Source of the DNA: a virus
Direction: 5' to 3' (one strand)
IMG/VR virus record: IMGVR_UViG_3300007538_000109
Span: 1 to 31,082 of that record
Length of the DNA stretch: 31,082 nucleotides
The notes beneath the pieces were generated by a model, which was not told where the DNA came from, ran no database searches, and was given only the letters and a program-made list of their open reading frames with translations. Below are positions 1,218-30,150 of the stretch, in pieces (within the stretch, counting starts at the first letter, position 1; every line of letters starts with the position of its first letter). Both the position numbers and the translations under genes were made by a program.

Positions 1218-1229
1218 ATATCTAACCAA

Positions 1230-4290: not shown

Positions 4291-4299
4291 AAAAATACC

Positions 4300-4638: not shown

Positions 4639-4664
4639 TTATCTAACACAACACTACTACTTCT

Positions 4665-4672
4665 TATTTATA
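4665..4672 (-). promoter_or_regulatory. late promoter TATAAATA
   Basis: On the minus strand the sequence reads TATAAATA, an exact match to the NATAAATA consensus reported for late genes of T4-like cyanophages and close to T4's TATAAATA. It lies 27 nt upstream of the 112-aa gene and would drive that gene with gp13, gp14, gp15 and gp16. It covers the TAA stop codon of the 58-aa gene. Confidence 0.75.
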
Positions 4673-4844: not shown

Positions 4845-5031
4845 TTACCAACTCCTGTAATAATATTTTTATTTCATCAATATCTTTCTTCATCTTATCA
4901 AGTTCTCTTTTTTGAGATTCTCTATATGATAAAGAATTTACATATTGATTATAAGCATTGCTATCATGATTTATGATAGCACCACTTTTCTCATCGCGAT
5001 ATAAATTTTGATACCCTTCTACTCTAATCAT
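4825..5031 (-). CDS. 68-aa protein with C-terminal coiled coil, conserved cyanophage type
   Basis: The product starts MIRVEGYQNLYRDEKSGAII and ends in a predicted short coiled coil, roughly residues 36-63, with hydrophobic residues at heptad spacing in SQKRELDKMKKDIDEIKILL followed by QELV. I recall the N-terminal signature VEG..NLYRDEKSGAIIN with an Asn/Tyr-rich continuation from many T4-like cyanophages, where it is unannotated. Its ATG overlaps the stop of the DUF4815 gene as ATGA, which points to coupled translation, and its own end overlaps the next gene by 20 nt. The coiled coil suggests an oligomer, possibly a small virion or assembly component; function unknown. Confidence 0.8.
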   Translation of the reverse strand: MIRVEGYQNLYRDEKSGAIINHDSNAYNQYVNSLSYRESQKRELDKMKKDIDEIKILLQELVNGSRQN

Positions 5032-11000: not shown

Positions 11001-12266
11001 TACTCCTTCACCACCATGCCTACTATAAAAATCTATAGTTCCATTTTGAGTTGGATGACCAGTAACATTGTTAACCCTTAGAACATTCCCCATTGAAAAT
11101 GGGACGTTTGTTACATTTTTTGCAGTATCTCTTGGTTTATCTACATCTAATACTAAAGTTCCATCGGTTTTTACATCAAATCCTTTTACATATGCCTTTC
11201 CAGGGGAAACTTGAACACATAAAAGGTCATCTGATGGAGTATTTAATTGCTCTGTCGTTTGATTTGCATCATAAAGACCATCATTACCTAACCTATCATT
11301 TAAGGAATTTTTTAGTGTTGGTATAAATGGGACAACAGCATAATTTCCAGACTCCTCATAAGTTCTTTGTGCAAGATATTCACGAATAATATTATATTGG
11401 GTTCTATCTTGATTTTTTTTTATTTTTCCATTATCGATTCTTAAAAGTTCTATAAAATCTTTATCGTCCAAATCATTTAAAGATTTTTTAGATAATGAAA
11501 CACCTATTTTTAATCTATCGGCACCTGGAGCAGCATAATTAGAAAATCCTTTCGCATTATCATAAAGTGATGAGTCATCTTTAGCACCAACTAACAACTC
11601 ATCTATTCTTAGACCTACTCTATATGAAGGAGTATTGGAATATTCATCCAATAACATTGTTTCACTATTAACATTAACGAAATAACCTCTTATAAAATAA
11701 ACTCCGGATTGTATTGATACTGAAGATCCAGTTGAGGTCGCATTGGAAGATAACAGAGATGCAAAAGGAGTTCCAGAATTTATAGTAGTATTGCCATAGG
11801 TAATATTTTTATTTGCAATTAAAAATTCTCCATGTAAAAAAGGAGTAAACTCAAAATCTGATGAAGAATCATCATATTTAACATAAATTGTTAAATCATC
11901 AATGTTTGGATCTCCTGGGAAAGCAACATATTTTATAGTTGCAGTAACTCCAGAAACTTGTCCTGTGATTTTTGTGCCAATAAAATTATTAATATATGCG
12001 GAAACTTCAACACCGGAATTTATTGCATTTAATTTTACGGCATAAAAGGAAGGGTCATAAGTTATTCCGCCAGGAATAACCATTGATCCTTCTTTAAAAA
12101 TATGTTTGCCAAAAGATTCTATTTGATTTTGTAATATAGATTGTAGAGTTGTTAGTTCTCTAGATTGTACTGGAAATCCTGGTTTAAATAAAACTTTATT
12201 AAAATTTTTATCACTATCAAAATCGTCGTAATATGGATTAACGTTTAAATTTCTTTTTTGTGCCAT
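5028..12266 (-). CDS. giant DUF4815-type virion protein (position of T4 genes 9-12)
   Basis: This is a 2412-aa protein. The N-terminus (MAQKRNLNVNPYYDDFDSDK, then VLFKPGFPVQSRELTTLQSI, FGKHIFKEGSMVIPGG) is what I recognise as the DUF4815 domain typical of large structural proteins in T4-like cyanophages. A middle part has RSRNTQFSASNLKPHTRYY, TRGTLVQTFTSI and RRYVDPLAQSFAV with GIFLTGANVYF; the C-terminus has PHAAVYVSNTVNLKNPAKAL and ADFRVLYKLNRAD. A GxGY module (NNGGSGYKVGDVVGIV) lies near residue 1860 and SGA.A-type modules occur at several places. It starts 5 nt after gp8 stops. Its place between gp8 and gp13 is where T4 has gp9 to gp12, so it probably supplies outer baseplate or short-fibre functions. 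I see no homology to gp9, gp10, gp11 or gp12 themselves. Confidence 0.88.
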   Translation of the reverse strand: MAQKRNLNVNPYYDDFDSDKNFNKVLFKPGFPVQSRELTTLQSILQNQIESFGKHIFKEGSMVIPGGITYDPSFYAVKLNAINSGVEVSAYINNFIGTKITGQVSGVTATIKYVAFPGDPNIDDLTIYVKYDDSSSDFEFTPFLHGEFLIANKNITYGNTTINSGTPFASLLSSNATSTGSSVSIQSGVYFIRGYFVNVNSETMLLDEYSNTPSYRVGLRIDELLVGAKDDSSLYDNAKGFSNYAAPGADRLKIGVSLSKKSLNDLDDKDFIELLRIDNGKIKKNQDRTQYNIIREYLAQRTYEESGNYAVVPFIPTLKNSLNDRLGNDGLYDANQTTEQLNTPSDDLLCVQVSPGKAYVKGFDVKTDGTLVLDVDKPRDTAKNVTNVPFSMGNVLRVNNVTGHPTQNGTIDFYSRHGGEGVNIGKSRVYTFTVTDQAYSGPSTKWNLYLYDVQTYTRLNLNNSVSASALPATSFVKGKNSGANGYAVSAGSDSNNNLVTLTQVSGKFAIGEQILINGVEVSNSITDVISYGTQDIKSVSQSSSGFVADSSLESFPLPNDVSEITINSNTVTSAGGNFTGITTDTVIRYKSAVAGDTLETFFRVADVSKDGLQLTTADITGVSGVFKGGITDGTYQARIGAPIIRNQEDAKLYEKFPNNNISSLDLSSSNLKIRLQSNQTQTSDLVGIVTMSLNDFDTSGISTVNFSAFDAERYSLYNDSAPRYIGTITSDSFKIDTANNTVSFSGLSPGRSYKLDATLTKVGIKSKKKNYTRSTELIVNLSRLNQSGTNSNTTVNDGLTYNNNCYGLRVQDEEISLNVPDVSEIIAVYESLNSSDPVLDKITCLSSSNIAENAIVGENIISKSGIVIARFVKSTLTDVASIVYLNSGRFNIGDVVIFKESNITTTITNIQLGSYTDITDNFILDRGQRDQYYDYSRIVRRNESTIPSKRLLIIFDHYEVEATDNGDLFTIQSYDNDRYEKNIPLIGVDAVRATDTFDYRPRVSAFTGNSASPFDFTSRNFTSLSKTIAPNEDSLVSYDYYIGRIDKLYIDKLGVLGIKQGQSGIRPKAPLISDDAMEIATISLPPYLFDPQDAEISLVDNRRYTMRDIGLIEDRVENLEEVTSLSLLEINTQTLQIKDAENRDRFKSGFFVDDFRNNSLINKDISSIQIDEDNHEMRPTLVRSSLKGSIAISGNNRNPESIDYEDPSLTLIDPNVKKKGNSITLDYDEVTWISQFVATKYVNVNEYQVSSYRGDVTLSPPNDFWTITQNFVSFFNNVNFGAAGGFSQSFNSFSQSSAIRFARSRNTQFSASNLKPHTRYYQFLDSEGNLDVIPKLLQVEDVKGSFTIGEEVVGYEVSGDSNSVARIRFRLAKPNHKTGPIISPESVYQYDPYSYPQAVTIPDSYTEGSTILNVDTASLSQSAQGRYSGYLEKGFILEGQSSGATAFVKDLRLITDAWGDLVGSFFIRNPNIAGNIRVENSTHTYKLTNSSTNRRPLISEDLDTLLSFARTQYITRGTLVQTFTSITNTTTIAIRRYVDPLAQSFAVGSTIDVETAIGRNNDDNGIFLTGANVYFATVDEENKPLRVEIRTVELGTPTREVIGQAAYLTPRRYIDDGNGNISEETIIKTSETGDVATRVTFPEPIYLAPGREYALVIISEYSDQYQVWVAEKGKKSVTVQNLPNPDAGVYSSQYAFGGLFMSQNGSIWTEDQNMDLKFDLFKAKFKSSSGTAYFYNAPLDLSNGYKRELPNNSLKTLPKTATIRITPVKKGASDFSDMETVLSPGRKLAGDNNYPGSVAYITGVGCSVFNNGNDVGIITGGTNYGINASTNVGTFNIVGNGKNLTLDVPATTNGTLQIAGLVVNNGGSGYKVGDVVGIVTADTIDRTGKGAQISINEIGGIDTLFVSGMQGDTGSNKAFNVGMGVSYYDDNGVVVSMANTTITGIDNGPTLNSGNYFKVNHFNHGMFGATNKVVLNDITPSAGSATTLTADLASSDVSEISIGSTVGFDIFEGVIVSPNNPGYVKIGREIIQYNDIDIGNKLIDITRGIDNTNIIDHNISDINGNQFSIPVSKYELNGISLRRINGVTLDVSSEGMDISGYYVSVDRSSNGTSRASDDNATSYYSQLSFTNEYQTGGKNANASENIAFTEIIPSFPLILPNDSTSVSGSIRTISGTSVDGSENSFVDNGYEPVELNQVNKLSSVRIVASEVNEETYLSTLPSNKSLTTAIRLSTTDENLSPQIFYLEETGTILQMPLINNPITDYASDNKVNSFKYDPHAAVYVSNTVNLKNPAKALKVLVAAYRHQTADFRVLYKLNRADSSEVEQEFELFPGYDNLRFENDALLTVIDQSKNNGKPDVFVRPSLEDEFLDYEFTANNLDLFTGYTIKIVMSGTNAAYYPRFKDLRTIAIR

Positions 12267-12271
12267 TTTTT

Positions 12272-13843
12272 TTAGAATTCCAGAATAATTTTAACGTCTT
12301 CTTTTTGTCTAATATCTCTAGTAACTTCGGGTCTGTTATCTATGTAAATAATATCTCCCGTCTTTCTATTTATCTCAGGATTTGCAAGTCCGGAATTAAA
12401 AGTAACTCCAAGATTTATTTCTTGATTTGCAACCGTCTTTGCAATTCCAGTAAAATCTTGAATAGAAACCGAAAGACTTCCTACAGTAACATTACCCGCA
12501 GACTGTTGAAATTCTGCAAAAGTGGATTTCTTTGTAACATTTGGATGATCAGTTTGATCATATTCATTAGCAAAATATAGTGATCTATCTCTTGTGTATT
12601 TTAATACTTTTGTATTTTTATCATATGATGCAACGTAACCTTGCGCAGTCCCAACTCCTGCTATTTCTTGATACATATAATCGCCAATTGTTGGTGTGAT
12701 TGTTGTATCATCACTTAACATCATAGAATAAAGATTTGAAAAACTACTTTCGGTAAAAATTGATCCTGATGAGGAATATTGTTCTGGATTTTTTATAATT
12801 CCAACTTGTGAAAAATTAGTGTCTGTTGGAAAATCTTTAGTGGAATCATCAAATCTAGTATAAACTAAAACTTTATCGGCACCTAATTCTTTATAGAGAT
12901 CATATCCATGTCCTTTTGATGGTGGAATAATAGGAATTAATAACGCTCTATCGCTAGGAGAACTCCACTGATCCCCCCTAACTGTAGTTAAATCAATGAT
13001 TCCATACGTATATCCACTTCCTCCAGAAGTAACTGTAACGTCCGTAATTTCTCCAGTATTTGCTACTGTAACTGTAACCTTACCGCCAGTCCCATCACCA
13101 AGTATATTTAATCCAGTATAAGTTCCAGATTTGTAATTATCTCCAGCGTTTTTGATATAAACTTTTCTTATTTGATTTTTATTAATATCAGAATTGCCCG
13201 ATTCTCTTACTGATTGTATCTGCGCACTTGTAGATGTTGACCAATCGTTTGGAAGAATAATATATTCAGTAGAATCAAATTTTATAATATCATTTGGAGA
13301 AACAGAAAACAAATATTTCCATATATATCCATCATCACCAACACCAGCTGATGAAGGTTCTAAATCAGTAAAAGTTGGTTCATATTTAGATCTGTTACCT
13401 TTTGCATCAACCCCAGTTTTAGAACCACCATTATCTAAACAAATATAAACCTTAAACTCACTATTCATCACATAAAAATTTGAATCATATAGTCTAGATG
13501 TTCCTCCATTAGGGGTAGGATTATCTATACTATAATCATGACGGTACATATCATAAGGGGTATCAATATTCCAATTGACCCTTCTTACAACTCTACGCAC
13601 ATCAGAAGCGGTTATTTTTCTACCAAATAATGCAGTTTCTCTATAATGCAAAGAATATTGAAAATTGTCAGTAGGTGATGGTGTATTTGTATCCCAATTA
13701 GATGTTCTTCCAAATCCGGGTGAAGATGGAGAAGAATCAACTAATCCCAAAAATGTATAATAAGAATTATTGGTACTCGTTACGGAGTCAATAAAATTAT
13801 TTGCATTTAATATTCTAAATTGGTCCGTTACTATAGCCGCCAT
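12272..13843 (-). CDS. 8: baseplate wedge protein gp8
   Basis: gp8 is a structural subunit of the baseplate wedge, where it binds gp7 and gp10 in T4. The N-terminus MAAIVTDQFRILNANNFIDS parallels T4 AIVTSKFRTEKMLNFYNSIG; YTFLGLVDSSP and FGRTSNWDT parallel the IFITFGRSEPW region; GDDGYIWKYLFSVSPNDIIKF parallels GDGYVWEYLFEIPPD; the C-terminus GDIIYIDNRPEVTRDIRQKE followed by DVKIILEF parallels GEMIYMENRPPIIMAMDQTE and INILFTF. At 523 aa it is about 190 residues longer than T4 gp8 (334 aa). The excess includes residues about 225-300, with NAGDNYKSGTYTG and TSGGSGYTYGIIDL, the GxGY module seen also in gp14 and gp7. A TATAAATA late promoter ends 18 nt before the ATG. Confidence 0.93.
   Translation of the reverse strand: MAAIVTDQFRILNANNFIDSVTSTNNSYYTFLGLVDSSPSSPGFGRTSNWDTNTPSPTDNFQYSLHYRETALFGRKITASDVRRVVRRVNWNIDTPYDMYRHDYSIDNPTPNGGTSRLYDSNFYVMNSEFKVYICLDNGGSKTGVDAKGNRSKYEPTFTDLEPSSAGVGDDGYIWKYLFSVSPNDIIKFDSTEYIILPNDWSTSTSAQIQSVRESGNSDINKNQIRKVYIKNAGDNYKSGTYTGLNILGDGTGGKVTVTVANTGEITDVTVTSGGSGYTYGIIDLTTVRGDQWSSPSDRALLIPIIPPSKGHGYDLYKELGADKVLVYTRFDDSTKDFPTDTNFSQVGIIKNPEQYSSSGSIFTESSFSNLYSMMLSDDTTITPTIGDYMYQEIAGVGTAQGYVASYDKNTKVLKYTRDRSLYFANEYDQTDHPNVTKKSTFAEFQQSAGNVTVGSLSVSIQDFTGIAKTVANQEINLGVTFNSGLANPEINRKTGDIIYIDNRPEVTRDIRQKEDVKIILEF
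13011..13040. repeat. GxGY-module DNA repeat, gp8 copy
   Basis: This 30-base plus-strand segment, beginning tatccacttcctccagaagt, matches the gp14 copy at 2484-2513 at 27 of 30 positions by eye. It encodes on the minus strand the core VTVTSGGSGY of the repeat module in gp8. A more diverged copy lies in gp7 at 14597-14626. Confidence 0.75.
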
Positions 13844-13860
13844 ATTAATCGTTTTTTAGA

Positions 13861-13868
13861 TATTTATA
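13861..13868 (-). promoter_or_regulatory. late promoter TATAAATA upstream of gp8
   Basis: The minus strand reads TATAAATA 18 nt upstream of the gp8 ATG, matching the NATAAATA cyanophage late consensus. The TAA stop codon of gp7 (13864-13866) lies inside it. It would let gp8 and the DUF4815 gene be transcribed independently of the 12-kb gp7 gene. Confidence 0.75.
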
Positions 13869-16800
13869 ATTGTTTTTTGAGAGCTCCAGTGTCTCTAATT
13901 CCATAGATAGATCCTCTTCTTTGAATTACTGGAAATGTTGTCAAACCAGCATCTATTGTTAAACCAGTAACACCTATAGAAATTGAAGAAGATCTGCCAA
14001 ATCCGCCAGTATTTCTTAATTCTCCCCATGAGAATTCTCCAACCGGATTATCATTATCGCCAATAGATGTCAATCCAGTATTAACTTGAACCTTACATTT
14101 TACAATCGCTAAATTTTGACCAGAGAATGTAGATGTGTCTATATTCGTAAGATGATAAACATTATCTGCAAATGTGGTTCCTATACCTACAGTATGAATA
14201 CCTAAAGTATCCATAGCAGTTACTCCAGATCCAATACGAGTATTAAAAACATAAATTGGCGTACCAATTGTTGCTAACTCATTTAATGATCCTAAAGAAG
14301 TTTTTAGAAGTGATAATTGAATTGCAGGATCTCCACCAACTGTTACTGGAGTTATGCTGGTAACTAAACCAGAATATCCTCGCGTTTCATCTCCTTCCAA
14401 ATCAGTAATATTATCTAAAATAATATCTGGTGATGAAATTAATACTTTTGGTGCAATAGTATAACCAAGTCCTGGATTAGTAATTGAAATAGCATTGACA
14501 GATCCATTTGAGAGAGTTGCAGTGGCAGTAGCAGTTGTTCCAACACCTACAGCGATTTCTGGAGGTGCTGATATAGATACTGTAGGAACACTAACATATC
14601 CACTACCGCCAGAGATAGTAAAACCAGTCACTTCTCCTTCCGAGTTCACTGTAGCAGTCGCTGATGCCGTTACTGGGTTTGGAAGACCGCCGACTATCAT
14701 TGCATCAAATGTTCCAGCAACAGCAACATTTGTATCAAAGAATTTAGCGTTATCAACAAATATTGAGTTAGTTTCTGAAGAACTTACATTACCAATTATC
14801 TTTGCAGTTGGATAAATATATGCTTCCAAAGAATCTCTGGTCTTATAAATTTTTTCTCCAGAGATAACTTTATCAGATTTTTGTTTAATAATATTGACAG
14901 GTCTATAATTAATTTCATCCAATCCTTGACCACTATAAAGATTAGTTTGAACTCTATCTGAGTTTGTAATATTAAGTGTCAATCTTTCATCCTGTCCTTC
15001 CATATTTAAAGAAGATCCAAGAATTTGCAACTCATCACCCAATTCTAAAATTGGTTTTCTATTTGAAACATCCTTAATATCTACTCCATTCGTTCCCTTA
15101 TAGAAGAATATATCAATTTGATCTTCAAGTTTGGGGGCGGTTTTAAATCTAAAAGATGTGCCTCCATTAAATTCATATGATTCTCCGGGTTCCTGAAGAA
15201 TTCCATTAACAAATACTAGTAATAAATTTGCAAAATTAACTTCTTCTGACAGTAATTTATCTACCTCAAAACTAAGCAGAACTCCATCTCTATAAGTTAA
15301 TGGGAATCTAGTCCTCACACCATCTTGATAATTTTTAATATTATCTACATAGTCAAGATCTCCAAATCTCCAGAAAGCAAATGAATCCTGATATGTATCC
15401 AATACTTCTAATGTAAATTCTTCTAGTGGGGAAGACAATCTAGAATCTGTTACTAAACCAACCAGAGTAAATTTATCGCCCTTTCTAAATGAATAACCTG
15501 GTCGTGTAATCTTAAAAGTTTGAATTTTTGCATATGTTGATCCAATACCAACTGTTGTTGAAGCTCCACCAACTTCAACTGACATTTGCAGTCCAATTCC
15601 AGTATCTGTAGTTCCATCAAGTCTAGAAATACCTTTTATATTTAAATTTTCATAAGTTGGTTCTGAGACAAAAATCTTAGTTTGAGTAGAGTAATCACTT
15701 CCTCCATCAAGAGTATCAAATGATAATGTTCCTCCTGCACCAACAGTAGCGGATATATTTGCACCAGAACCAGCACCAGTTGGATCATAAGCAGTAACTG
15801 TGACTAATCCAATATTATTGTATCCAGATCCAAGATTATCAGTCGTACCTATTCCAATTGGTCCAATTACACCAGTAGAAGCAAATGTTGTTGTCACAGA
15901 AGCTCCTGCAAGAGGAGCATATCCAACACCACCTGTTGATCCAAGAGAAATAATTATTCCCCCTCTAGGAATTTCATTCAAATTGACATCATAATCAGAT
16001 GTTACAATGAATGAAGAATCGGTAGCAGATCTAATTCCAGTAAATACCACACTCGATATACCGGCATTATTTGATATAATCTCAAAATTTCCATTTGGAT
16101 TATTCAAAGTTGTGGGAGATTGGAATATTCCATTAATTAATAATAAACCAGATCTTTGAGATTCTGTTGTACCTATTCCAGCAGTGTTTGCTCCACCAAC
16201 AGTCAATGCAAAAGTTCTACCTATACCACTAAATTCGTGAGAAATATCATCGAAGATTTCATTACTTTCATAACTACTTCTAAAGTAGACTCTACCATCA
16301 AACTTTGATGTTGGCAATTCTAAATTACTAAAGTCTCTTTCTTCACCATCTTTTCCTCTAGGAGGACTAGTAAAGAATATCTTATTATCAACAATATTAT
16401 ATGAACCTTTATAAACAGTAGCTACTCCAGTAATGTTGGAGTGAGATGTCGCAGAACTACCAACAAAACCTCTAGAAACTTCTACAAGGGCAGTTGTCCC
16501 TACTCCAGTTATTGGACCTACTGTTGTTGTTCCAAAACCAACATTGATAACTTTCATATACTCATCATCCACTCTCAAAATATCGTTAGCAGCAATTGAT
16601 GATATTCCTGAAAGAGAGAATATTGTTCTTGTTGTACTTATTCCAATATTTCCATTATCAATATTTTCATTCAAACTATATTTTGTGGGAGTAAATAATA
16701 GAGGATACTGAATTAAATTGTCAATTGAAATAACAACCTTCTCATTTTTTTTAGACATTTCAAATTTATGAAGATTTCCAGTACCAACTCCAACAAAGGT

Positions 16801-19800
16801 AACTGGAGTTCCAGATCTGGTAGTAGAAATTTGGAATACATCATTTGATTCAACAACAGCGAAAACACTTGATGGAAGTGTACTTGTAATACCTGCGGTT
16901 GAATTATAATATTGCATAGGTGTTGATCCAACACCTACAAAACTAGAACCAGGAGTGTAAATTAATTCCTCATTATTTCTAAAGAAATGATTTTTGATTG
17001 TAAATTTGCCCGTAGATGTATTTAAAATACCACTATCATTTGGATTAAAAGTTTTTGCAAAAATAGGAGTTCCATTATTAGTCAATTCAAAAGATGTTGA
17101 ATTAACTCTATCTCCATTGTGAGCATTATAATGTTTTGTATCCATGTAATCCAATGAATTTCCATTTTGCAGTCCAACAGGAATATTTTCATCAACATTA
17201 GAATAGAAACATTGATTAAATGATAATACTTTTATTTCCGCATCTACAAACTCAGTGTCTGGATGAAACTCCAAAACAAACTGTTCTCCAGAGTATTCGA
17301 CTCCAAATGTACCTATTCCCAACGTATTATCATATTCTTCGTAATCAGTATTTGGTAAATTACTATCTACTGAAATAAATGCAGACTGTTGAGCATATAC
17401 AAAATTGCCATCGTGTAATGCCATTACTTGATGCAAAGCTTTAGTAGATCCACAAGAAACTTGGACAATGGATTTGACCGCATTAAATAATGAAGAATCA
17501 AGTCCTACTACATTTGTGGTTCCAATACCTACAGAATAATTTGATTGATAAATAGCACTTCTAACTGAATCATCTGGTTGACCGACCGCACCAAATTTAT
17601 AAGTACCAACACCTATATCAGCAGAAGTTGTACCTATTCCAATTATTTTAGAACGAAGTCTAACACTAGAAGATGTATCATTGGTGTATGTAATTGAGCA
17701 TATACCACTATTAATATTAGAATCAAAACTTCCTATAGATTGTTTTGTTATAGATGATCCTTCTGCATCAAAGAAAGATTCTGCCAAGAAAGTATTTGTG
17801 TCATCATGAGTCAAATATAACTCAACAAAATTCATATCATTTGTTGATGTATTAATAACCTGGATATTTGCATATAAAGACTTTACATTTTCAGCATCGA
17901 CAGAAACTAAATCGGTTGTTTGAGTTGCAGATACCAGTTTAGTTGAATCAATTAAATTGACAAATCCAATAGTCGTTGTTGCCACACCAACAGAGTCTGA
18001 GGTGAATTTACTACCCAATAATCTTATATCATAATCAACATTATATGGATCATTTGGATAAAAACGAAGATATGATTCATTAGTAATTTCAGTTTCTACT
18101 ACGAATCTTCCATAATCGAGTGACATATCACTCTTATCATTTATAATTCCACCCCTTTGAACTAACACATTAGTACTACCAGAACGTAATAAAGTTAATT
18201 CAGTCAATTGCAATTCAGAATCGTCTAAACTTTCTATTCTAAAAAGAAGGTTTGTATATGTGTCAAAATCATTGATATTAAAAATATTTACAAATTCATC
18301 AGGATTATCATCAAGAGAAGAAAATTGATCACTAATATCATCAATAGTTTTTACTAAATCACTAGTAACATTAATATAATCTGTAAGCTTTCTTTCTTTA
18401 AATTCTATAAATTTGGATGAATCTGACAATATTTCATAATCTCTAACATAATCAAATTGACGGATACTATCCACTCTTTGTTCATCTAAAATATTATAAA
18501 GTTGCGATACAATCATTTCAGAAGTATCTACACCAACATTAGTTGTAACTGAAGTAATGCCAACATCAGCAAAATTTTTCATTCCACTAGTATGAAGCAT
18601 ACTATTAACAGGAGTAATTAAGTCTTGATATGTTATAGGACTCTTTACGGTGTATGATAGATTTTGATAATAATCATTATCCGATGTTACCTGAACATCT
18701 TCATTTAGTTTGCCAATGTTATTTGACCAACCATCAGACTTATTAATAGAATAGTTTATTTTAAACTCTCCATTATTTAAAGTGCTATCAATTGAACTAA
18801 CAGTAGCAACACTTTGAGAATCTTTACCGGTTAAAATATCACCACTAGTTAACTTATATCTACCTTTAACTTTTATAAAATTGGCATTTGATTCTGTTAC
18901 AATTAAATCTCTTTCTAAATTATTGGTAATTATTTTTTCATCAATTATAAAATTAGATTTTTTCTTTACAAGTGTGATAGATGGATAAACATTGCTATTT
19001 GTTACCGTGGCTAATGAATCTGTTATTGTATTTGCGATACCAGTATTTGTAGAAGTAGATATGCCACTTATATCAATCGTAATTGTATTATTGGGAGTTG
19101 CAGATTCATCTACGGCACTAACTCTTAAGAAATTAAAATCATAATCTTCAGAGTTAAAACCTGAACCATTATTACTATTTTTTATAATACCTTCAATGAA
19201 TACATTGTCATCTACCTTAAAAGGAAATACTGTAAATCCTAATGGTGGTGTGGTAATATGGCAAGTAAATGTGGTACTAGAATTTGATTCTACTCTTTCT
19301 ATACTAATTCCATTTGTATTATTTGTTGTATAAACTTCAATCTCATTATCAGGCAGTCCTTTTGGTTCAATAATTGTCTCAATAGAACCTATAGATGATC
19401 CTAGTAATTTACATTCAAATACACCTTTACTAATCTTATTTTTGGATACAGAATCAACAAGTATAATTGATGGCGGAGATACATAGTTACTACCTCCATC
19501 TGTTACAGAAATGATGCCAACAGTATTGTTATCTTTAACTCGAATTAGTGTGGAAATAAGAGCTTTTGGACGTAATGTTTTATCTGAGGGGTATTCAAAA
19601 TTTTCGTTTATAATTCTAGTTTCTTTTATTATTCCAACATTTCTTGCTTTTGGAATAATGACGGCATCTTTACCCAAACTAGTTGTTACATTGGATATTA
19701 CTGGAAGTTTTTTGTATCCAGATCCAGAAGAAAGAATTTTTATATCAGAGATTCCACCAGAGGCAGTTTTAGATGTTGTCTCATACTTAAGAATATTACA

Positions 19801-22800
19801 ATCTGTTTTTTGATAAAAACTTCTTTCGGGTTTTTCAGTTAAGTTGATAGTAAATGTAGTTTCACCCACACCAGTTACAGTGTATTCATTTTGATAAACA
19901 CTATCTACATATAAAATTTCATTATAATTTTTGACATCTTTGTCAGGTTTAATATAAGATTCACTTATAGTTGGATGCTCTCTACTATAATAAAGTTTTG
20001 TTGGTAAATCTTCGCTATAATTTAGGATTATAGAAGATCCTGTAGATACTACATTAAAATTAGTAGTAGATCCAGTAGAAACAAATTGATTTTTAAACTC
20101 ATTATCAGTAAATATTTTATTATTAGTTCCGTTTAATACTAAATTATTCCCTTTGGTTACTTTTATTCTTGGATTTACATTACTTAATAAGAAATCAGTT
20201 CCCGATTTTCCAGTAAAATCAATCGTAGTGGGGGGATTTTTTACACTATCACTATAAGTTTCGCACAATTTAAAAGTATTATCATTAACTTTAAATATAA
20301 AGTAATAACTTTGTTTAACCAACCCAGTTATTTGTCCCACTGATTGACTATATTGAACTTTATCACCAGTATTATAAGTATTTGTAGTGGTTGTTATTGT
20401 ATTATTATCAGTATCTACTGAACTAATGGGAATGTTTGCATTATCATTGATTAATACGTAATCATCACCAGAACTTACTGTAAGTAATATAGCTTGAGTA
20501 GATGTTCCAATACCTACATTAAGATTTGGTTGAACGGATAACTTAACTTTATCCCCATTAGACAATCCATGAGCAGTTGAAACTGCAACAACAGAAGTTA
20601 TCTTACTAACTTTACCAGTTACTTGAGCATAATTAGATTCAAGTAAGTAATCATCCTTATCGGATCCATTTGTATGGAAAAATACTTCATTAAATGCAGC
20701 GGTGATACCTGTCTTAATTCCGATTAAGTTTTTGCCTCTATTCGTAGAATATACGGTTGTTGGCATATCAAATGCATCAGCATCACTTCCATTAGTTGAA
20801 ATTGAAACTGCATTACCAGAAGAAGGAACTGTAAAAGTAAGTTTTTGATTATTCTTAAATGAATGACCTTCTATAAAAATTGTTTGGGTTGGAATTTGAC
20901 GTATTTCAGTAATTCCTCCATATGTTACTGAAACAGCAGTAGAAATGCCTGCGGTAGTTCCTAATCCAACAGATTCAGTTGGATTGAAATATGCTTTATC
21001 ATTAACTCTAGATTCAAAACTTTGAGTATTTGCAGAAATAGTAAATGAATCTGGAACAAATTCAATAACGTCACCGGTAGAATAACCGACTCTACTTCCA
21101 TGAACTCTCATTAAATTTCTATCTCTAGAAATGTTTAAAACTTGTAAAGTATCGGTTTTAATTTTTACACTACTTCCAACAGATACTGTTGGTGGTATAA
21201 ATGCAACCGAAATTTCTGTAGATCCTATTCCAGACGAAACTGTTGAGGTATCTGTAAGAACTGATTTATATGTCGTTATTCCTATCTGGAAAAGATTATT
21301 CAATGTTGATACTGTAGTAAATCCTGAAAGGATTACATAGTCATCATCCAATAAATCATGGCTTGGTGATATAGTTACTTTTACTTGATTATCACTTAAT
21401 CTTGTTACAACCGAATTTTCATATTCTTTTGTCTCAATATTTCTAAGATCGATAATTTGCTTACCTTCTAAATGAGAAACTCTTGCAATTGCACCAGATC
21501 CTTCTGTGCCAGAGTTATCAAAATCCAAACTATCATTTACTTTATAAGAATCACCCGAATTTATAATTTCAAAATCTGTTATTGATCCTTCAGAAACAGA
21601 TTCAATTGATAATCTTTGATCTTTAACTTCTTTAGAACCAAATATAAAATCATAACTCGTATTATCATCAAGTAATTTATATGGGAATGTATTTCTAATT
21701 AAATTTGAATTTATAAAATCAAATGATTGATTTAGTTTAAAATTATCTGAAACAACTTTTGAATTAAAAGTATCTCCAATAAAATAAGGGAATGCTGGAT
21801 CTCCTACAACAGAATCAATAGTTGCATAGTAAGCATATACTCCTTCAGGAAATTCTGGAGTTTTTGCAAATCTTCCATTATGTTTATCCAAATCTCCAGA
21901 ATTATCAAATTTATAATCTTCTATAAATGTCCCTGGGACAAAATCGTCTGAAGATGGTCTATCGATTACATTAGCAACATTTGCATTAGAATAACCAGTT
22001 TCTAATCTTTTAGGTAAAGATTGCGTATTTGTAGGATCGGAGTATCCATATGGACCATATATTGGATTGCCATCATAAGACCATCCAATGATGGGAGAGT
22101 GACCAGATTCTTCAAAATAACTTGTTGAATAACCACAAACTGCATACTGAAGTTTATTTGGAGATTCTATTAGGATTTCTTTTCCAAGTTTTTTTTGCAA
22201 ATTAAATGTCAAATCTCTAATTTTTGGATTAAATTTTGCTCCAGTACCAGCAGATTTGATTAATACTGAAGTTGAAGTATTAGAATATCCAATACCAGCA
22301 TTTACAACTCTAACTTCAGAAACTCTTCCATTAGATATTATAGCTCTTGCCTCTGCACCACTGCCCATTCCAGACGAATCTGTAATTATAACATCTGGGA
22401 CGGAATTATATTCCAATCCTCCATATTCCATTTGTATCGAATCTATTAGACCATTAATTACTATTGGTCTTACTCTACATTCTTTTCCGTTTTTAATCAA
22501 AATTGGAGGTTTGCTCTCAAAATTTACAATAGAAGATCCATATCCAGTTCCTCCTTCATAAAGATACGCATCAATTATTTCACCTCTGACTTCGGTTGTT
22601 AAAGTTACTATTTGTCCTTCTTGACTTGTTGTTCCAAATCCTACAGGTTTATAATTTAAGAAAGCTGAAATATTAGGATATTTAAAATACTGATACCCAC
22701 TACCAGATCCTCCAAAGTTTACATATTTACCTCTCTCAAAATTGGACCTGATGGTGCCACCTATGCCTGCATCAGCCAATCTAAAACTATTATTATCAAT

Positions 22801-25800
22801 CTTTATAACATAATACTTATTGCTTGATGAAAGACCACTAATTGCGGAAGTTTCATATTCATAATTAATGAGATCGCCATGATTGAAATTATGATTAACA
22901 AATTCAATAGAATTTAAACTTTGCGATACTGCGGGAGGTTTTACTATTAATTTTCTATTTGTATAATTTCCACCATCGAGTATTCTTATTTCGGATATTG
23001 TATTTTTAGATGATGCTGTAGTAAATTTATGCACTCCTGCAGTGTTTATAGTGCTAAAACCTACAGTATTGATGCCTGAAGAATAATCAGAATATTTTTT
23101 ATATAATTGAATTGATGAATTATTTAATACTTTTGCAAAATATCTTTGATTATTTGTTAGTGTTGATATTGGTAACTCTAATGGACCTGAAGTATTGATT
23201 CCTATAGGAAGATTGCCATTAGAATTGTAAATAATTTCCTCACCATTAGAGAAATTATGACTAGTTTGGAATGTTATTGTTTCTCCTACAGTATTGATTC
23301 CACCAAGATTGTTAGTTGTTCTTGCATCAAAAAATACTTCTCTAACTCTTTTAGTTAAAATAGGATCTACAACTAAACCACTACCATTTCCACCAGTAAC
23401 TCCAATAGAAATTACTTTATCAATATCAAATTCTTGAGTGTCTACATGTATTTTAGTGACCTTACCAGACAAAACTGGTTGAACAAGTGCATTAACTGTG
23501 CCACCTGCAGAAACTGAAATAACCGGAGGATTAATTACATCATATCCTTCTCCCCTATTAGAAACTTCGATTGATTTTAAAGGTCCAAAATAAATTTTAT
23601 CTCTAGATTTATAATTAAAAATTTCTACACCATCAATTAACATTCCAGTAGGTCCGGGAATAGTATCACTATTTTCACTATTATTAATATTTGATGGGAA
23701 CTTTCTTAAAATCTTCTGTGCTCCTATGACAGAAGATTTTTGAGAATTTAGAGTAAATTTATGATTTCCGGATTCTGTTGGTACTTTAAATGTTTTAAAA
23801 TTAGATTGTGTCCTAATAAAAGATCTTGAGGAATAAAGCCTCAATTGAGAATCATTTAAAACTTCTGCATAATAAACGCCAGTATCTAAACCAACAATGG
23901 GATTTTCTGCAGAATAAAATATTTCATCTCCATTAGAAAATGGAAGTGTGTCATTAAAATTTATTATGCTATAACTACTGATACCAACTTTACCGTCAAA
24001 TTTTGATGAAGAATTTGCAGAAATGGTAACAGAAGAAGATTTTATATTTACACCAATTTGATAAGATTTTGGTGTGGGAACATTAGTTACACCATCATCA
24101 GTGGATGGTAATGAATTTGATGCAACATAATAATATTCATTTCTATCATTATAAAGATTTTGAATATCGGATACAATAAAATCTACTTCTAATGGAGCAG
24201 ATGTTGATTTGGAACCTGCTGTTCTTAAAACTCTCCTAACTTTATAATCTAAAGTATTATCAAAATTACTGTACGCACTTTCAAGTACTATTGTGTTTCT
24301 AACACCATCCACAATCTCTATATTTTTTACTCTTGATTCAAATGATGTTCCCAATAATTTAATTTTATCGCCAATTTTTAAACTGGATTCATCAACCTTA
24401 CTTTTTAAAACTATTTTTGATCCGCCAGAAATAAATTTATCGACATCATAAGAAACACTTGTATTATAAATCCATGAATTTGCAAATATTTCTTTGTATA
24501 TTTTATCGCTTGGATTATCAATTATCTCACCAAGGTTAGAAACAAAAATCTCATCACCTTCACTTACATTTAGGGTATCAGAAATTTGAGTAAAATCTGA
24601 TAATACCCCCAATAAAGAGATTTCAACTTTTTTACTTGTATCTCCATCTTCATATCCAAAATAAGATTCATCTGATCTTATGCTATCAGTTTCGGATATT
24701 GCACTGGAAATTCCCGAACATCCAAAAAACTGATTTATACTTTTATTAGTGTAAGTTATATTAGTATTAATACCCGAAATTATTTTACCAGACTCTTTAA
24801 ATCCTATTGTAGAATCGACAGAAATAGTCGATGCTCCAACACCCACATCTTGTAAAACTTTTGTATTAGGAGTTACAACAAAAGTTCCTTGAACAGCACT
24901 GCCTTCCTCATATCCTACAAATAACTTTATTTTAAAATATTTTTTGCCATTTCTGGTAAAATTTTCTACTGAAGAAACTGAAGCGTTTGTATTTAAATCA
25001 GATTGCTTAAATATTGTCTGACCGACCAAATTAATTGGATTTCCAGAAATAGATTCTGCAATTACAATCTCTCTTCTTGAGAATTCAGCAGATGAAGACT
25101 TTATCAAAAAATCTTCAAGATTTACAATACTAGGTGTTACTCCATAAAGAACATTGAATAAAATTCGAAATGATTCATTTGTTCCTTTTGATTCATACAA
25201 ATTTCTTGCGTGTTTTAAGAAATTGCCAACATTTACGTTTTCATTGAAATTGACATTTTCTAATCCAGGAGCAAAAGTTGATTTTAATTTTTTATAAAAT
25301 TCTTTTAAAAATAATGAACTTATATTTTGTACAGTAGAACCAGACTCATGTTCTGATGCTGATGATGTAGAAAATATAAGTTCTTCTTGATTTATTTCCT
25401 GATGATAATTTGTAATTCCACTAAAACCACGACCTAATTCACAACCAGTAAAAACATTTGTACCAATACCAGTGTATGTAATTATTTCATCATTTATTTT
25501 TAATAAACCATATTTTTTTGGAAATCCTTTGGTACTAGTAACATAAATTTCATCTGCATCAATTGATGTAATACTAGTTGTAGTTGTACTATCAGTTATT
25601 ACTTCTGGTATAAGATTGTCTAATTTCAAATACTGATCCAAATTTTCGGCAATATCTACCGGACCACCTTGATACTCCTGAGAAATATAATATTGCTTTA
25701 AAAATTCAACCGCTTTTGGACTTTCATCCAAAATATAACTAGGTAATTGGCTATCAATAATTTGTTGAATCTTTATCCTAGATTCAAAACCTGTTTGTAT

Positions 25801-25803
25801 CAT
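13864..25803 (-). CDS. 7: giant baseplate wedge protein gp7 (3979 aa) with repeat modules and YHYH domain
   Basis: gp7 is the wedge initiator of the T4 baseplate. About residues 190-310 resemble the C-terminal part of T4 gp7: ARNLYESKGTNESFRILFNV with LYG parallels SYDFYSTKGIEASYKFLFKV with LYN, and NLVGQTIFKQ followed by FTRNGKKYFKIKL parallels DLVGQTIYTATG and SNGKLQWTVTI. The rest, nearly 3700 residues, is a beta-rich extension. It holds modules of the form H.h..GD.h.Y...GL...Y.V.....F.L (near residues 615, 845, 965, 1645, 1743, 1805, 2935; E1_FCCH-like), at least ten GxGY modules (from about 745 to 3800), a YHYH domain at about 1220-1345, and a fibre-like segment LLLVFVNGILQEPGESYEFN near 3520. 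It starts one base after gp6 stops. T4 gp7 has about 1030 residues. Confidence 0.9.
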   Translation of the reverse strand: MIQTGFESRIKIQQIIDSQLPSYILDESPKAVEFLKQYYISQEYQGGPVDIAENLDQYLKLDNLIPEVITDSTTTTSITSIDADEIYVTSTKGFPKKYGLLKINDEIITYTGIGTNVFTGCELGRGFSGITNYHQEINQEELIFSTSSASEHESGSTVQNISSLFLKEFYKKLKSTFAPGLENVNFNENVNVGNFLKHARNLYESKGTNESFRILFNVLYGVTPSIVNLEDFLIKSSSAEFSRREIVIAESISGNPINLVGQTIFKQSDLNTNASVSSVENFTRNGKKYFKIKLFVGYEEGSAVQGTFVVTPNTKVLQDVGVGASTISVDSTIGFKESGKIISGINTNITYTNKSINQFFGCSGISSAISETDSIRSDESYFGYEDGDTSKKVEISLLGVLSDFTQISDTLNVSEGDEIFVSNLGEIIDNPSDKIYKEIFANSWIYNTSVSYDVDKFISGGSKIVLKSKVDESSLKIGDKIKLLGTSFESRVKNIEIVDGVRNTIVLESAYSNFDNTLDYKVRRVLRTAGSKSTSAPLEVDFIVSDIQNLYNDRNEYYYVASNSLPSTDDGVTNVPTPKSYQIGVNIKSSSVTISANSSSKFDGKVGISSYSIINFNDTLPFSNGDEIFYSAENPIVGLDTGVYYAEVLNDSQLRLYSSRSFIRTQSNFKTFKVPTESGNHKFTLNSQKSSVIGAQKILRKFPSNINNSENSDTIPGPTGMLIDGVEIFNYKSRDKIYFGPLKSIEVSNRGEGYDVINPPVISVSAGGTVNALVQPVLSGKVTKIHVDTQEFDIDKVISIGVTGGNGSGLVVDPILTKRVREVFFDARTTNNLGGINTVGETITFQTSHNFSNGEEIIYNSNGNLPIGINTSGPLELPISTLTNNQRYFAKVLNNSSIQLYKKYSDYSSGINTVGFSTINTAGVHKFTTASSKNTISEIRILDGGNYTNRKLIVKPPAVSQSLNSIEFVNHNFNHGDLINYEYETSAISGLSSSNKYYVIKIDNNSFRLADAGIGGTIRSNFERGKYVNFGGSGSGYQYFKYPNISAFLNYKPVGFGTTSQEGQIVTLTTEVRGEIIDAYLYEGGTGYGSSIVNFESKPPILIKNGKECRVRPIVINGLIDSIQMEYGGLEYNSVPDVIITDSSGMGSGAEARAIISNGRVSEVRVVNAGIGYSNTSTSVLIKSAGTGAKFNPKIRDLTFNLQKKLGKEILIESPNKLQYAVCGYSTSYFEESGHSPIIGWSYDGNPIYGPYGYSDPTNTQSLPKRLETGYSNANVANVIDRPSSDDFVPGTFIEDYKFDNSGDLDKHNGRFAKTPEFPEGVYAYYATIDSVVGDPAFPYFIGDTFNSKVVSDNFKLNQSFDFINSNLIRNTFPYKLLDDNTSYDFIFGSKEVKDQRLSIESVSEGSITDFEIINSGDSYKVNDSLDFDNSGTEGSGAIARVSHLEGKQIIDLRNIETKEYENSVVTRLSDNQVKVTISPSHDLLDDDYVILSGFTTVSTLNNLFQIGITTYKSVLTDTSTVSSGIGSTEISVAFIPPTVSVGSSVKIKTDTLQVLNISRDRNLMRVHGSRVGYSTGDVIEFVPDSFTISANTQSFESRVNDKAYFNPTESVGLGTTAGISTAVSVTYGGITEIRQIPTQTIFIEGHSFKNNQKLTFTVPSSGNAVSISTNGSDADAFDMPTTVYSTNRGKNLIGIKTGITAAFNEVFFHTNGSDKDDYLLESNYAQVTGKVSKITSVVAVSTAHGLSNGDKVKLSVQPNLNVGIGTSTQAILLTVSSGDDYVLINDNANIPISSVDTDNNTITTTTNTYNTGDKVQYSQSVGQITGLVKQSYYFIFKVNDNTFKLCETYSDSVKNPPTTIDFTGKSGTDFLLSNVNPRIKVTKGNNLVLNGTNNKIFTDNEFKNQFVSTGSTTNFNVVSTGSSIILNYSEDLPTKLYYSREHPTISESYIKPDKDVKNYNEILYVDSVYQNEYTVTGVGETTFTINLTEKPERSFYQKTDCNILKYETTSKTASGGISDIKILSSGSGYKKLPVISNVTTSLGKDAVIIPKARNVGIIKETRIINENFEYPSDKTLRPKALISTLIRVKDNNTVGIISVTDGGSNYVSPPSIILVDSVSKNKISKGVFECKLLGSSIGSIETIIEPKGLPDNEIEVYTTNNTNGISIERVESNSSTTFTCHITTPPLGFTVFPFKVDDNVFIEGIIKNSNNGSGFNSEDYDFNFLRVSAVDESATPNNTITIDISGISTSTNTGIANTITDSLATVTNSNVYPSITLVKKKSNFIIDEKIITNNLERDLIVTESNANFIKVKGRYKLTSGDILTGKDSQSVATVSSIDSTLNNGEFKINYSINKSDGWSNNIGKLNEDVQVTSDNDYYQNLSYTVKSPITYQDLITPVNSMLHTSGMKNFADVGITSVTTNVGVDTSEMIVSQLYNILDEQRVDSIRQFDYVRDYEILSDSSKFIEFKERKLTDYINVTSDLVKTIDDISDQFSSLDDNPDEFVNIFNINDFDTYTNLLFRIESLDDSELQLTELTLLRSGSTNVLVQRGGIINDKSDMSLDYGRFVVETEITNESYLRFYPNDPYNVDYDIRLLGSKFTSDSVGVATTTIGFVNLIDSTKLVSATQTTDLVSVDAENVKSLYANIQVINTSTNDMNFVELYLTHDDTNTFLAESFFDAEGSSITKQSIGSFDSNINSGICSITYTNDTSSSVRLRSKIIGIGTTSADIGVGTYKFGAVGQPDDSVRSAIYQSNYSVGIGTTNVVGLDSSLFNAVKSIVQVSCGSTKALHQVMALHDGNFVYAQQSAFISVDSNLPNTDYEEYDNTLGIGTFGVEYSGEQFVLEFHPDTEFVDAEIKVLSFNQCFYSNVDENIPVGLQNGNSLDYMDTKHYNAHNGDRVNSTSFELTNNGTPIFAKTFNPNDSGILNTSTGKFTIKNHFFRNNEELIYTPGSSFVGVGSTPMQYYNSTAGITSTLPSSVFAVVESNDVFQISTTRSGTPVTFVGVGTGNLHKFEMSKKNEKVVISIDNLIQYPLLFTPTKYSLNENIDNGNIGISTTRTIFSLSGISSIAANDILRVDDEYMKVINVGFGTTTVGPITGVGTTALVEVSRGFVGSSATSHSNITGVATVYKGSYNIVDNKIFFTSPPRGKDGEERDFSNLELPTSKFDGRVYFRSSYESNEIFDDISHEFSGIGRTFALTVGGANTAGIGTTESQRSGLLLINGIFQSPTTLNNPNGNFEIISNNAGISSVVFTGIRSATDSSFIVTSDYDVNLNEIPRGGIIISLGSTGGVGYAPLAGASVTTTFASTGVIGPIGIGTTDNLGSGYNNIGLVTVTAYDPTGAGSGANISATVGAGGTLSFDTLDGGSDYSTQTKIFVSEPTYENLNIKGISRLDGTTDTGIGLQMSVEVGGASTTVGIGSTYAKIQTFKITRPGYSFRKGDKFTLVGLVTDSRLSSPLEEFTLEVLDTYQDSFAFWRFGDLDYVDNIKNYQDGVRTRFPLTYRDGVLLSFEVDKLLSEEVNFANLLLVFVNGILQEPGESYEFNGGTSFRFKTAPKLEDQIDIFFYKGTNGVDIKDVSNRKPILELGDELQILGSSLNMEGQDERLTLNITNSDRVQTNLYSGQGLDEINYRPVNIIKQKSDKVISGEKIYKTRDSLEAYIYPTAKIIGNVSSSETNSIFVDNAKFFDTNVAVAGTFDAMIVGGLPNPVTASATATVNSEGEVTGFTISGGSGYVSVPTVSISAPPEIAVGVGTTATATATLSNGSVNAISITNPGLGYTIAPKVLISSPDIILDNITDLEGDETRGYSGLVTSITPVTVGGDPAIQLSLLKTSLGSLNELATIGTPIYVFNTRIGSGVTAMDTLGIHTVGIGTTFADNVYHLTNIDTSTFSGQNLAIVKCKVQVNTGLTSIGDNDNPVGEFSWGELRNTGGFGRSSSISIGVTGLTIDAGLTTFPVIQRRGSIYGIRDTGALKKQL
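14597..14626. repeat. GxGY-module DNA repeat, gp7 copy
   Basis: The segment beginning tatccactaccgccagagat encodes FTISGGSGY on the minus strand near the C-terminus of gp7. It shares the tatccact-ccgccaga frame with the copies in gp14 and gp8 but is more diverged. Confidence 0.6.
21775..22145 (-). other. YHYH-domain-like segment inside gp7
   Basis: Residues about 1220-1345 of gp7 read YAVCGYSTSYFEESGHSPII then GWSYDGNPIYGPYGY, later LDKHNGRFAKTPEFPEGVYA followed by YYATID, and FPYFIGD. This is the order and wording I know from the YHYH domain (HSPIIGW..DG.PIYGPYGY ... LD..NGRF..TPE.P.G.Y.Y ... FPYF.G) found in bacterial secreted proteins of unknown activity. The eponymous YHYH is YAYY here. 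Confidence 0.8.
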
Positions 25804-25804: not shown

Positions 25805-27697
25805 TTACTCTCTTATTAATTTCCCGTTTGAATAACTTGATGTGTAAAAATCTCTAACAAAAACTGTTCCAGATATTTCATCACCTGATGCAATGACATC
25901 TCTGACCATATTTATTTGACTTTTTGATATATTAAAACTGAGATATAAATCTTTCAAACCAACAACATCATTTGATTCTGGAACGGCCTGAACTTCAATA
26001 ATATTATCAGGTAAAGATGTTGAAGTAATGATTACTGTTTCTAATAAAATTTCTCCTTTTTCATAATCCACCGTACCGGCATTTTTTACAATTATTCTAT
26101 TTCTGCCAGTTTCTTTTATTAGTTTAACTATGGATAGTATTCCTGTTTTTTTGTCCTCATTTGGAGTATCCGTCAAGTATACTGTATCAGATTCTCCAAT
26201 TATTTTAAATCCCGTTGATTTAATATTATAACCATCTTCATTAACATGAAACTTATTTCCAAAACATAACTCATACTGTGTAGATTGATTAACAGCAGCT
26301 TTTAAATCTCTTCTTATTTTTACCTTTGTAATATTTGAAGTGATGGCATTATCTGTATTATCAATAACCTGTAACAATTTGCTATATTTGAATCTACCAC
26401 CAAACTTGTTTAGATCAATAGATTTGGAATATGAATTAAGAGAATTTGTAATTCTTGTTTTTAAATCATCAACCTTAGAAGTTTTTGAATAATCAAAATA
26501 TATTGATGATTCTATTTCAACATAAAGAACTTTAAGATCGACTAACTTTTGATTAATACCAGAAACTCCATATTGTTTTAATTTTGATAGTATTTGATTC
26601 TTTGAAAAATCCGAAACAAAAGATCCATTTTTTGGTTTAATACTAATTGTTACTGATCCAAATTCGGGTGGATCAAGTTCCTCTCCACCAATTACCGATA
26701 CTGATTCAGTTTCTGGATAGATCTGTTTTATAATTGCTTCGTAATCCCTTGCTGTAACCGCCCTGTACTGTGCCGAATAGATTCTAGGGGCATAATACTT
26801 AATAGAGTCTAAAGTCTCGGCATTGGACCCACTCTGTGCCTTTAAAACAGTTGTTATAGTAGGATTGCCGGGGTTCTTTGGATTCGATTGTTGGTCAATA
26901 ATACTTCCCGCAAAAGAAAATATTGATGGACCATTACCATCAATACCATCAGTAACAATGTATTCTACTGTAATAGTAGATTCATTTTCCAATTTCTTTC
27001 CAATAAATCCATCACCGAATAATAATTCGTATTTTTCATCCTGAATTTCTTGAATTAAGAAGATTCTTGATTCAGAATTGACATTAATAATATTATCAAC
27101 TAAAGTATACTCAACTCCTTTTCCAGTTTCTTGAGGACCTTTGATGTATACTCTTATAGTTGAAGTATCAACATAAGAATTGTCTAAAATAAATTTTTGG
27201 TTAAGTGAAGTGTCTACTGTAAATGTTCTTCTTAAAAATGTTCCTTGATATACAGTCACATTTTTAAATGATGCAGTACCACCACTTACAGTAGTGGAAA
27301 TATTTTCTGGTGTTGCAAAAGTATATGATGTATCATCATCTCTACCTATACACACCAAACCCGCTTCTAAGGTAACTGTATTAATATCTCCAAGGTTTTC
27401 TATATCAAATGATATCTCTGCTGTTGCTGCAGTTCTAGAGCGAGGTACATAACCAATATTTCTGGCAAGTGATATAACATTTTCACGAAGTGTTGCCGAA
27501 TCCAAAAAGGATTCATTAACAATCATGTTTGAATTAAATGCTGTAATATAAGTATTATATGCTAATGTATCAATCAGCGTCGAAAAATTAGATCCTTCAA
27601 AGTCAAAATCCGTAAATGTAGAGTTTGCACGAAGATAATCCTTGATGGATGTTTTTATCTGATCAAAATCTAGATTAGTAAACTTAGTAAAAGGCGT
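25805..27697 (-). CDS. 6: baseplate wedge protein gp6, apparent ACG start
   Basis: gp6 forms the dimeric ring holding the T4 wedges together. The C-terminal part from ATG at 27526 is 573 aa (MIVNESFLDSATLRENVISL, RNIGYVPRSRTAATAEISF, APRIYSAQYRAVTARDYEAI, IYPETESVSVIGGEELDPPE). The frame stays open upstream and gives a further 57 residues that look fully conserved: PFTKFTNLDFDQIKTSIKDY, LRANSTFTDFDFEGSNFSTL and IDTLAYNTYITAFNSN. The family N-terminus, as I know it, is MPFTKF; here the Met codon position is ACG at 27695-27697, 4 nt after the gp25 stop. No in-frame ATG or GTG lies between the upstream stop at 27716-27718 and 27526. With the ACG start the protein is 630 aa, near T4 gp6 (660 aa). 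Either ACG is used, coupled to gp25, or the base is an error. Confidence 0.88.
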   Translation of the reverse strand, partial: TPFTKFTNLDFDQIKTSIKDYLRANSTFTDFDFEGSNFSTLIDTLAYNTYITAFNSNMIVNESFLDSATLRENVISLARNIGYVPRSRTAATAEISFDIENLGDINTVTLEAGLVCIGRDDDTSYTFATPENISTTVSGGTASFKNVTVYQGTFLRRTFTVDTSLNQKFILDNSYVDTSTIRVYIKGPQETGKGVEYTLVDNIINVNSESRIFLIQEIQDEKYELLFGDGFIGKKLENESTITVEYIVTDGIDGNGPSIFSFAGSIIDQQSNPKNPGNPTITTVLKAQSGSNAETLDSIKYYAPRIYSAQYRAVTARDYEAIIKQIYPETESVSVIGGEELDPPEFGSVTISIKPKNGSFVSDFSKNQILSKLKQYGVSGINQKLVDLKVLYVEIESSIYFDYSKTSKVDDLKTRITNSLNSYSKSIDLNKFGGRFKYSKLLQVIDNTDNAITSNITKVKIRRDLKAAVNQSTQYELCFGNKFHVNEDGYNIKSTGFKIIGESDTVYLTDTPNEDKKTGILSIVKLIKETGRNRIIVKNAGTVDYEKGEILLETVIITSTSLPDNIIEVQAVPESNDVVGLKDLYLSFNISKSQINMVRDVIASGDEISGTVFVRDFYTSSYSNGKLIRE

Positions 27698-27701
27698 ATT
27701 A

Positions 27702-28103
27702 TTATCTTGTTGCCTCTAATAGAAATGTATATTCTTGAGTCGGAAACTCTTGACCAATAATATCAAACACTACTGTAACATCAAATGTATTTTCATCCGG
27801 ATTTGGATTTACAAATACTTGAAGATTATCAACTCTTGGTTCAAAGTTTTCTATTGCAACCTGAATTTGATCCTGAATAACAGAAGCAGTACCAAAATCC
27901 ACAAAATCGAATAAACTACTTCTTACATCAGATCCAAAAATTGAATTAAAAAACTTTTCTGTGGGTATTGTTTGGACAATATTTCTTACAGATCTACGAA
28001 TCGCATTCTCATTTTTTAATATTTGTAGATCTTTTGTCACAGGATGAGGCTCAAAAGACAAATTAATGTCTTTAAAAACCCTTGATATCCTTTTTATTGC
28101 CAT
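27702..28103 (-). CDS. 25: baseplate wedge protein gp25 (lysozyme-like GPW/gp25 family)
   Basis: This 133-aa protein matches T4 gp25 (132 aa), the wedge component that with gp6 and gp53 forms the wedge core and lies next to the sheath initiator. The GPW_gp25 pattern is clear: FKDINLSFEPHPVTKDLQIL, KNENAIRRSVRNIVQTIPTE with KFF, FGSDVRSSLFDF, then QDQIQVAIENFEPRVDNLQV and a final FDVTVVFDIIGQE. The conserved NE-AI-R-SV-N-I/L core is intact. It starts 20 nt downstream of a TATAAATA late promoter and is followed after 4 nt by the ACG codon that appears to begin gp6, so gp25, gp6 and gp7 form a tight wedge operon. Confidence 0.95.
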   Translation of the reverse strand: MAIKRISRVFKDINLSFEPHPVTKDLQILKNENAIRRSVRNIVQTIPTEKFFNSIFGSDVRSSLFDFVDFGTASVIQDQIQVAIENFEPRVDNLQVFVNPNPDENTFDVTVVFDIIGQEFPTQEYTFLLEATR

Positions 28104-29230: not shown

Positions 29231-29389
29231 TTACTCCTTGTAAATTTTAGTTTCTAAATCCGAGGGGTCCGGAGAACCTGTTTGATAGTATTCTACCGCA
29301 AGGTCCTCCATTACCTCAAAATATTCAAGTTGACTTAGATTTTTATATATTCTACGTCCTTTACATAGAATATCATACTTTTCTGTCAT
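29231..29389 (-). CDS. 52-aa hypothetical protein, conserved cyanophage type
   Basis: The product is MTEKYDILCKGRRIYKNLSQ, LEYFEVMEDLAVEYYQTGSP and DPSDLETKIYKE: an N-terminal strand pair followed by an acidic helix. The pattern with DLAVEYYQTGSP and an acidic C-terminus is one I recall as widespread in cyanomyoviruses, annotated only as hypothetical. Its ATG overlaps the stop of the glycosyltransferase-like gene (TAATG), so it is the second gene of that cassette. The last codons (AAG GAG TAA) form the ribosome-binding site of the following 47-aa gene, another sign of tight coupling. Confidence 0.85.
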   Translation of the reverse strand: MTEKYDILCKGRRIYKNLSQLEYFEVMEDLAVEYYQTGSPDPSDLETKIYKE

Positions 29390-30150
29390 TAGATTACGCG
29401 AGTCTTTTCATGCCCCACACGAATTCGTGGATCACACCAAATCTCAAATCCGGCATCAATTGCATCAAGACAGAATGATACATCCTCTCCACACATGTCT
29501 TGTACATCACCAGACTCAAAGACTTGCATCTTTGGAGCAAACCATGGATACTTCATCTCCGTGTGCTCAAAGACTCCGTGCTTGATGAGAAGCCATCCAA
29601 ATCCTGTATAATCAACAGTAAAAGGTTTTTTCCGCTTTGAGATACTCTCAATCGTTTCGTGATTCATCACACCCCCATTGTTACGGAAGTCATCCTCCTC
29701 CAACCAATGAGCAACTGATGTGGTGCGACCATCTTCGGTACAATACCATCCTGCTGCAATGTCTTGGTCCATCAGGATAAGTTGATAGAATTTTTCAGTG
29801 TTGAAAACAATATCAGAATCGATCCAGAGTTGCCAATCATATTTGAGTTTGCCATCCCACGGAAGTTGATCCGGTCCACGCAATACATTTGCACCAAGAC
29901 ACTTGCATCTTGCAAAGTTTACCATGGAGGAATAATCCTGCGAAATTTGGATGCTTGCTCCGTTTTGTACAAGATCAAAACAAAGTTGCACAAAACTCTT
30001 TAGAAATGTATATGATACTCCACGCCCCGGAAGACAAAAGACGACAGACTTACCTCTTACCATTTCTTTTGCCACTTCATAATCCCACTCCTGTTCCGTG
30101 GGAGACGCTGCCATGGGCGTCTTTGCTTTTATTGTAAATCCTTTAGCCAT
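29389..30150 (-). CDS. GT-A-fold glycosyltransferase-like protein
   Basis: This 253-aa protein has the layout of a small GT-A glycosyltransferase: KSVVFCLPGRGVSYTFLKSF near residues 34-53, a central WQLWIDSDIVF with a DxD-type metal/nucleotide-sugar motif near residues 106-116, and a C-terminal CGEDVSFCLDAIDAGFEIWC with DPRIRVGHEK, as in acceptor-site ends of such enzymes. It has no signal peptide or membrane segment, so it would act in the host cytoplasm. The substrate is unknown; phage DNA, a virion protein or host surface polymer are all possible. It is the first gene after a strong sigma70-like promoter and overlaps the following 52-aa gene by one base. No Shine-Dalgarno is visible before its ATG. 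I am confident of the fold class, less of activity. Confidence 0.75.
   Translation of the reverse strand: MAKGFTIKAKTPMAASPTEQEWDYEVAKEMVRGKSVVFCLPGRGVSYTFLKSFVQLCFDLVQNGASIQISQDYSSMVNFARCKCLGANVLRGPDQLPWDGKLKYDWQLWIDSDIVFNTEKFYQLILMDQDIAAGWYCTEDGRTTSVAHWLEEDDFRNNGGVMNHETIESISKRKKPFTVDYTGFGWLLIKHGVFEHTEMKYPWFAPKMQVFESGDVQDMCGEDVSFCLDAIDAGFEIWCDPRIRVGHEKTRVI

Follow-up and report, generated by a model that had tools for sequence, protein, structure and literature searches.

The ACG codon at the initiator position of the baseplate wedge gene gp6 in a cyanomyovirus contig is an ordinary one-off base change and no new mode of translation start. The analysed DNA (hereafter the window), a metagenome-assembled contig, comprises the 31,082 bases of one IMG/VR virus record. 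With a probability of about 0.88, its ACG represents a private single-base change of the ordinary gp6 ATG, i.e., either an error in the consensus sequence or a rare variant strain, rather than a conserved or selected non-AUG site. The codon is read directly from the window and is a singleton, and all relatives carry ATG.

The gene is located on the minus strand, and its full conserved frame (25805–27697) comprises 630 codons including the ACG, plus the stop. The sequence-only reading had placed ACG instead of ATG at the conserved N-terminus of gp6, and sequence and translation agree with this: positions 27697–27695 of the plus strand (gp6 being read in reverse) form an ACG at the expected Met-1 codon, after which the frame continues with PFTKFTNLDFDQIKTSIKDY... 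Immediately upstream lies the baseplate wedge gene gp25 (27702–28103, minus strand; PF04965, PHROG 261), the 3' end of which reads ...GAG GCA ACA AGA TAA (stop at 27704–27702), followed by TAAT and then the ACG, in line with the spacing of 4 nt between gp25 stop and gp6 initiator position given earlier. Likewise, the gp6 frame was found to be closed by an in-frame TAG 6 codons before the ACG (codons between: AGG CAA CAA GAT AAT AAT), and an ORF call allowing ATG, GTG and TTG detected none of the three between this stop and the ATG at 27526, so that the reported lack of ATG and GTG extends to TTG. The mechanical ORF from this first ATG (25805–27526, minus strand, first base 27526) encodes 573 aa, lacks the 57 conserved N-terminal residues and is unlikely to represent the true product.

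Assignment of these 57 residues to conserved gp6, proposed from the bare letters, is borne out by profile and protein comparisons. The helical domain PF21379 was matched by Pfam at residues 10–82 of the protein minus its first codon (E 2.3e-16), and PHROG 219 covers residues 3–599 of 629 (E 1.5e-200), both profiles together placing the product at full length in the gp6 baseplate wedge family. The gp6 protein of S-SKS1 aligns over its full length with 68 % amino-acid identity (tblastn), and the T4 gp6 structure (PDB 5hx2) aligns from query residue 8 onwards. Also the gene position is that of the family, i.e., after gp25 and before a gp7-like wedge gene (13864–25803), and the order gp25/gp6/gp7 is the same in S-SRM01 and P-SSM2. 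Downstream of the ACG the frame is complete and undamaged. In all other respects it is an ordinary gp6 of cyanomyoviruses. The T4-like cyanomyovirus S-SKS1 (gp6, AGH31672.1) resembles the window in having gp6 directly after gp25 and in the N-terminus PFTK(F/Y)TNLDFDQIKTSIKDY, but starts gp6 with ATG where the window has ACG. The gene following gp6 (13864–25803) codes for a very large baseplate wedge protein of 3979 aa (PHROG 2885), stretches of which also match the structural-protein families PHROG 701 and 4406. Further along the window (5028–12266), a 2412-aa protein matches PHROG 358, a family of unknown function.

Across all fetched loci, pooled and with duplicates removed, 131 of 132 distinct gp25/gp6 junctions possess ATG as gp6 start codon, the sole ACG being that of the window. 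ATG precedes PFT in each of the best 80 IMG/VR relatives by N-terminal protein sequence, and in all 111 distinct junctions of a second set, which was drawn by a DNA pattern with free start codon (GATAA-N-NNN-CC...) and overlaps the former. In the isolates S-SKS1, S-SRM01 and P-SSM2, the gp6 initiator codon is ATG, and the annotated CDS begins there. An IMG/VR-wide scan for ACG followed by PFTKFT codons returned five matches, all in unrelated sequence and none encoding gp6; a scan of IMG/VR for GATAA-N(0,6)-ACG-PFT, allowing 0–6 nt after the gp25 stop, returned zero. The gp25/gp6 junction was not found in contigs of cellular genomes, and nothing relevant on ACG starts in phages or cyanophages was encountered in the literature, as judged from the titles and abstracts listed. 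An ACG conserved in independent genomes, as expected of a naturally ACG-initiated class, is hence contradicted by the 131 junctions with ATG.

The closest relatives are five IMG/VR contigs (datasets 3300008012, 3300025647, 3300025610, 3300025803 and 3300007234), which match the window at 99.7–99.97 % identity in alignments of 1.8–14.5 kb and were recovered again by a second scan based on a gp25 pattern. Their dataset ids differ from that of the window, making them separate records, yet ones not proven to be independent samples, and some may be reassemblies. IMGVR_UViG_3300025647_000049 (49,433 bp) and the four shorter contigs belong, by nucleotide identity and identical start-codon flanks, to the same population as the window, but have ATG where the window has ACG, and about ten other bases are private to the window. 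The start-codon difference amounts to one base: at plus-strand position 27696 the window carries G and the contigs carry A (5/5), corresponding to T to C on the coding strand. A canonical codon in near-identical genomes is the pattern expected of a private mutation or a consensus error. The sequence-only reading had offered two interpretations, of which that of an assembly error or mutation, taken together, is supported by the ATG of these contigs; that of a non-AUG start does not pass the test of conservation proposed with it, ATG being present in the five contigs, in the three isolates and in some 125 other distinct metagenomic junctions, and neither the comparison of gp6 starts across cyanomyoviruses nor the targeted scans yielding a conserved or second ACG. 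Apart from the start codon, gp25 of IMGVR_UViG_3300025803_001024 has an in-frame deletion (opposite window positions 27943–27966) of 27 nt that are present in the window and in the remaining contigs, by which TIPTEKFFNSIFGS becomes TIFGS with 9 residues lost; it reflects either a polymorphism or an assembly collapse.

Positions 1–19168 of the window differ from the 49 kb contig at only 4 positions, none of them in the listed genes (99.98 % identity). Between 19245 and 30147, about 11 bases are private to the window, namely five synonymous changes, five amino-acid changes and the start codon. The private base in gp25 (27800; minus-strand gene), 104 nt from the ACG, specifies Pro102 in the window and Ala in the five near-identical contigs, with Pro being family-typical (67/85 relatives); similarly, the window-private Ala2 of the ORF at 29389–30150 is family-typical (33/38 relatives). 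Since random errors rarely produce family-typical residues, these two alleles suggest that in this region the window probably represents a genuine haplotype, distinct from that of the five contigs. It follows that the ACG, too, could genuinely belong to the window strain. Unlike the Pro102 and Ala2 alleles, however, the start-codon change is shared by no relative. A mere error-rich copy was rejected as a description of the window, considering the two family-typical alleles and the 99.98 % identity over the first 19 kb. Seven private substitutions cluster within 1.1 kb of the gp7-like gene (22396–23500), which, compared with the 99.98 %-identical first 19.2 kb, gives the impression of a patch resulting from recombination or from a mixture of strains.

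Folding of the junction RNA predicts an AGAGGC/GCCUUU hairpin around the start, modestly better than in shuffled sequences (z −1.6). In the window (27690–27720), AGAGGC near the gp25 end can pair with GCCUUU at the gp6 start, the start codon then residing in or beside the loop. The pairing motif occurs in 96/132 junctions, possibly from shared codons alone. As a family-common sequence the hairpin leaves the ACG unexplained and was rejected as its cause.

Genuine initiation of gp6 at the ACG by fMet-tRNA, via coupling to gp25 termination 4 nt upstream and an AGAGG element in the gp25 3' end, appears unlikely. It would accord with the intact downstream frame without other damage to gp6, with the proximity of the gp25 stop and with the seemingly real haplotype at neighbouring sites, but it has to contend with a singleton among 132 distinct junctions and with two whole-collection pattern scans containing no other ACG gp6. 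Nor is the context unusually strong, the AGAGG being 15 nt from the codon in the window versus about 12 nt in many relatives. ACG initiation is moreover very weak in E. coli reporters, where ACG fell into a group with 0.1–1.5 % of ATG efficiency, the effect depending on context (PMC6925171), so it would be surprising for a late structural gene to function with this start codon. Natural ACG initiation in eukaryotic viruses and plastid systems likewise has a near-cognate codon in place of the initiator; there, however, it is conserved or experimentally shown, whereas the ACG of the window is known from a single assembled contig. That a living cyanophage strain starts this essential baseplate gene at ACG by gp25-termination coupling, and persists as a rare variant within a population otherwise using ATG, is very unlikely.

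A start of gp6 at the internal ATG (27526), without the 57 residues, is hard to credit at all. This ATG is the first of ATG, GTG and TTG in the frame, but its use would eliminate most of the helical domain PF21379 (residues 10–82), and the sequence of the T4 gp6 structure aligns already from query residue 8. The Met at 27526 behaves as an ordinary internal residue (Met in 84/88 relatives, Leu in the rest), and nothing resembling a Shine-Dalgarno sequence can be seen immediately ahead of its codon. C-to-U editing at the RNA level, restoring AUG at gp6 as in land-plant plastids, is of negligible probability: we know of no such ACG-to-AUG editing in cyanobacteria or phages, and it is not needed, because the near-identical contigs carry ATG in their DNA. 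The reaction as such is known from chloroplasts (PMC9845219), which is what speaks for it.

Under the preferred reading of a private base change, the normal start of gp6 would be an ATG directly behind gp25, with translation of the two genes probably coupled, and a coding-strand T-to-C transition in this ATG would have arisen in, and be private to, one metagenome-assembled contig. T-to-C is a common type of polymerase error. The change may represent a consensus error or else a rare strain variant with strongly reduced gp6 output, and the two would seem about evenly balanced. If real, the mutant would probably be hypomorphic. Gp6 is essential in T4, and a phage relying on ACG or on the internal ATG for gp6 would probably be impaired, so that a dead-end mutant or an error fits better than adaptation.

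The case calls for caution, as one deviating base in a viral contig assembled from a metagenome can pass for non-canonical initiation and would lead gene callers to cut 57 residues from a conserved structural protein. Should the ACG work here nonetheless, it would be an unusual case in which nature itself tests the extent to which translational coupling can relax the choice of start codons in phages.
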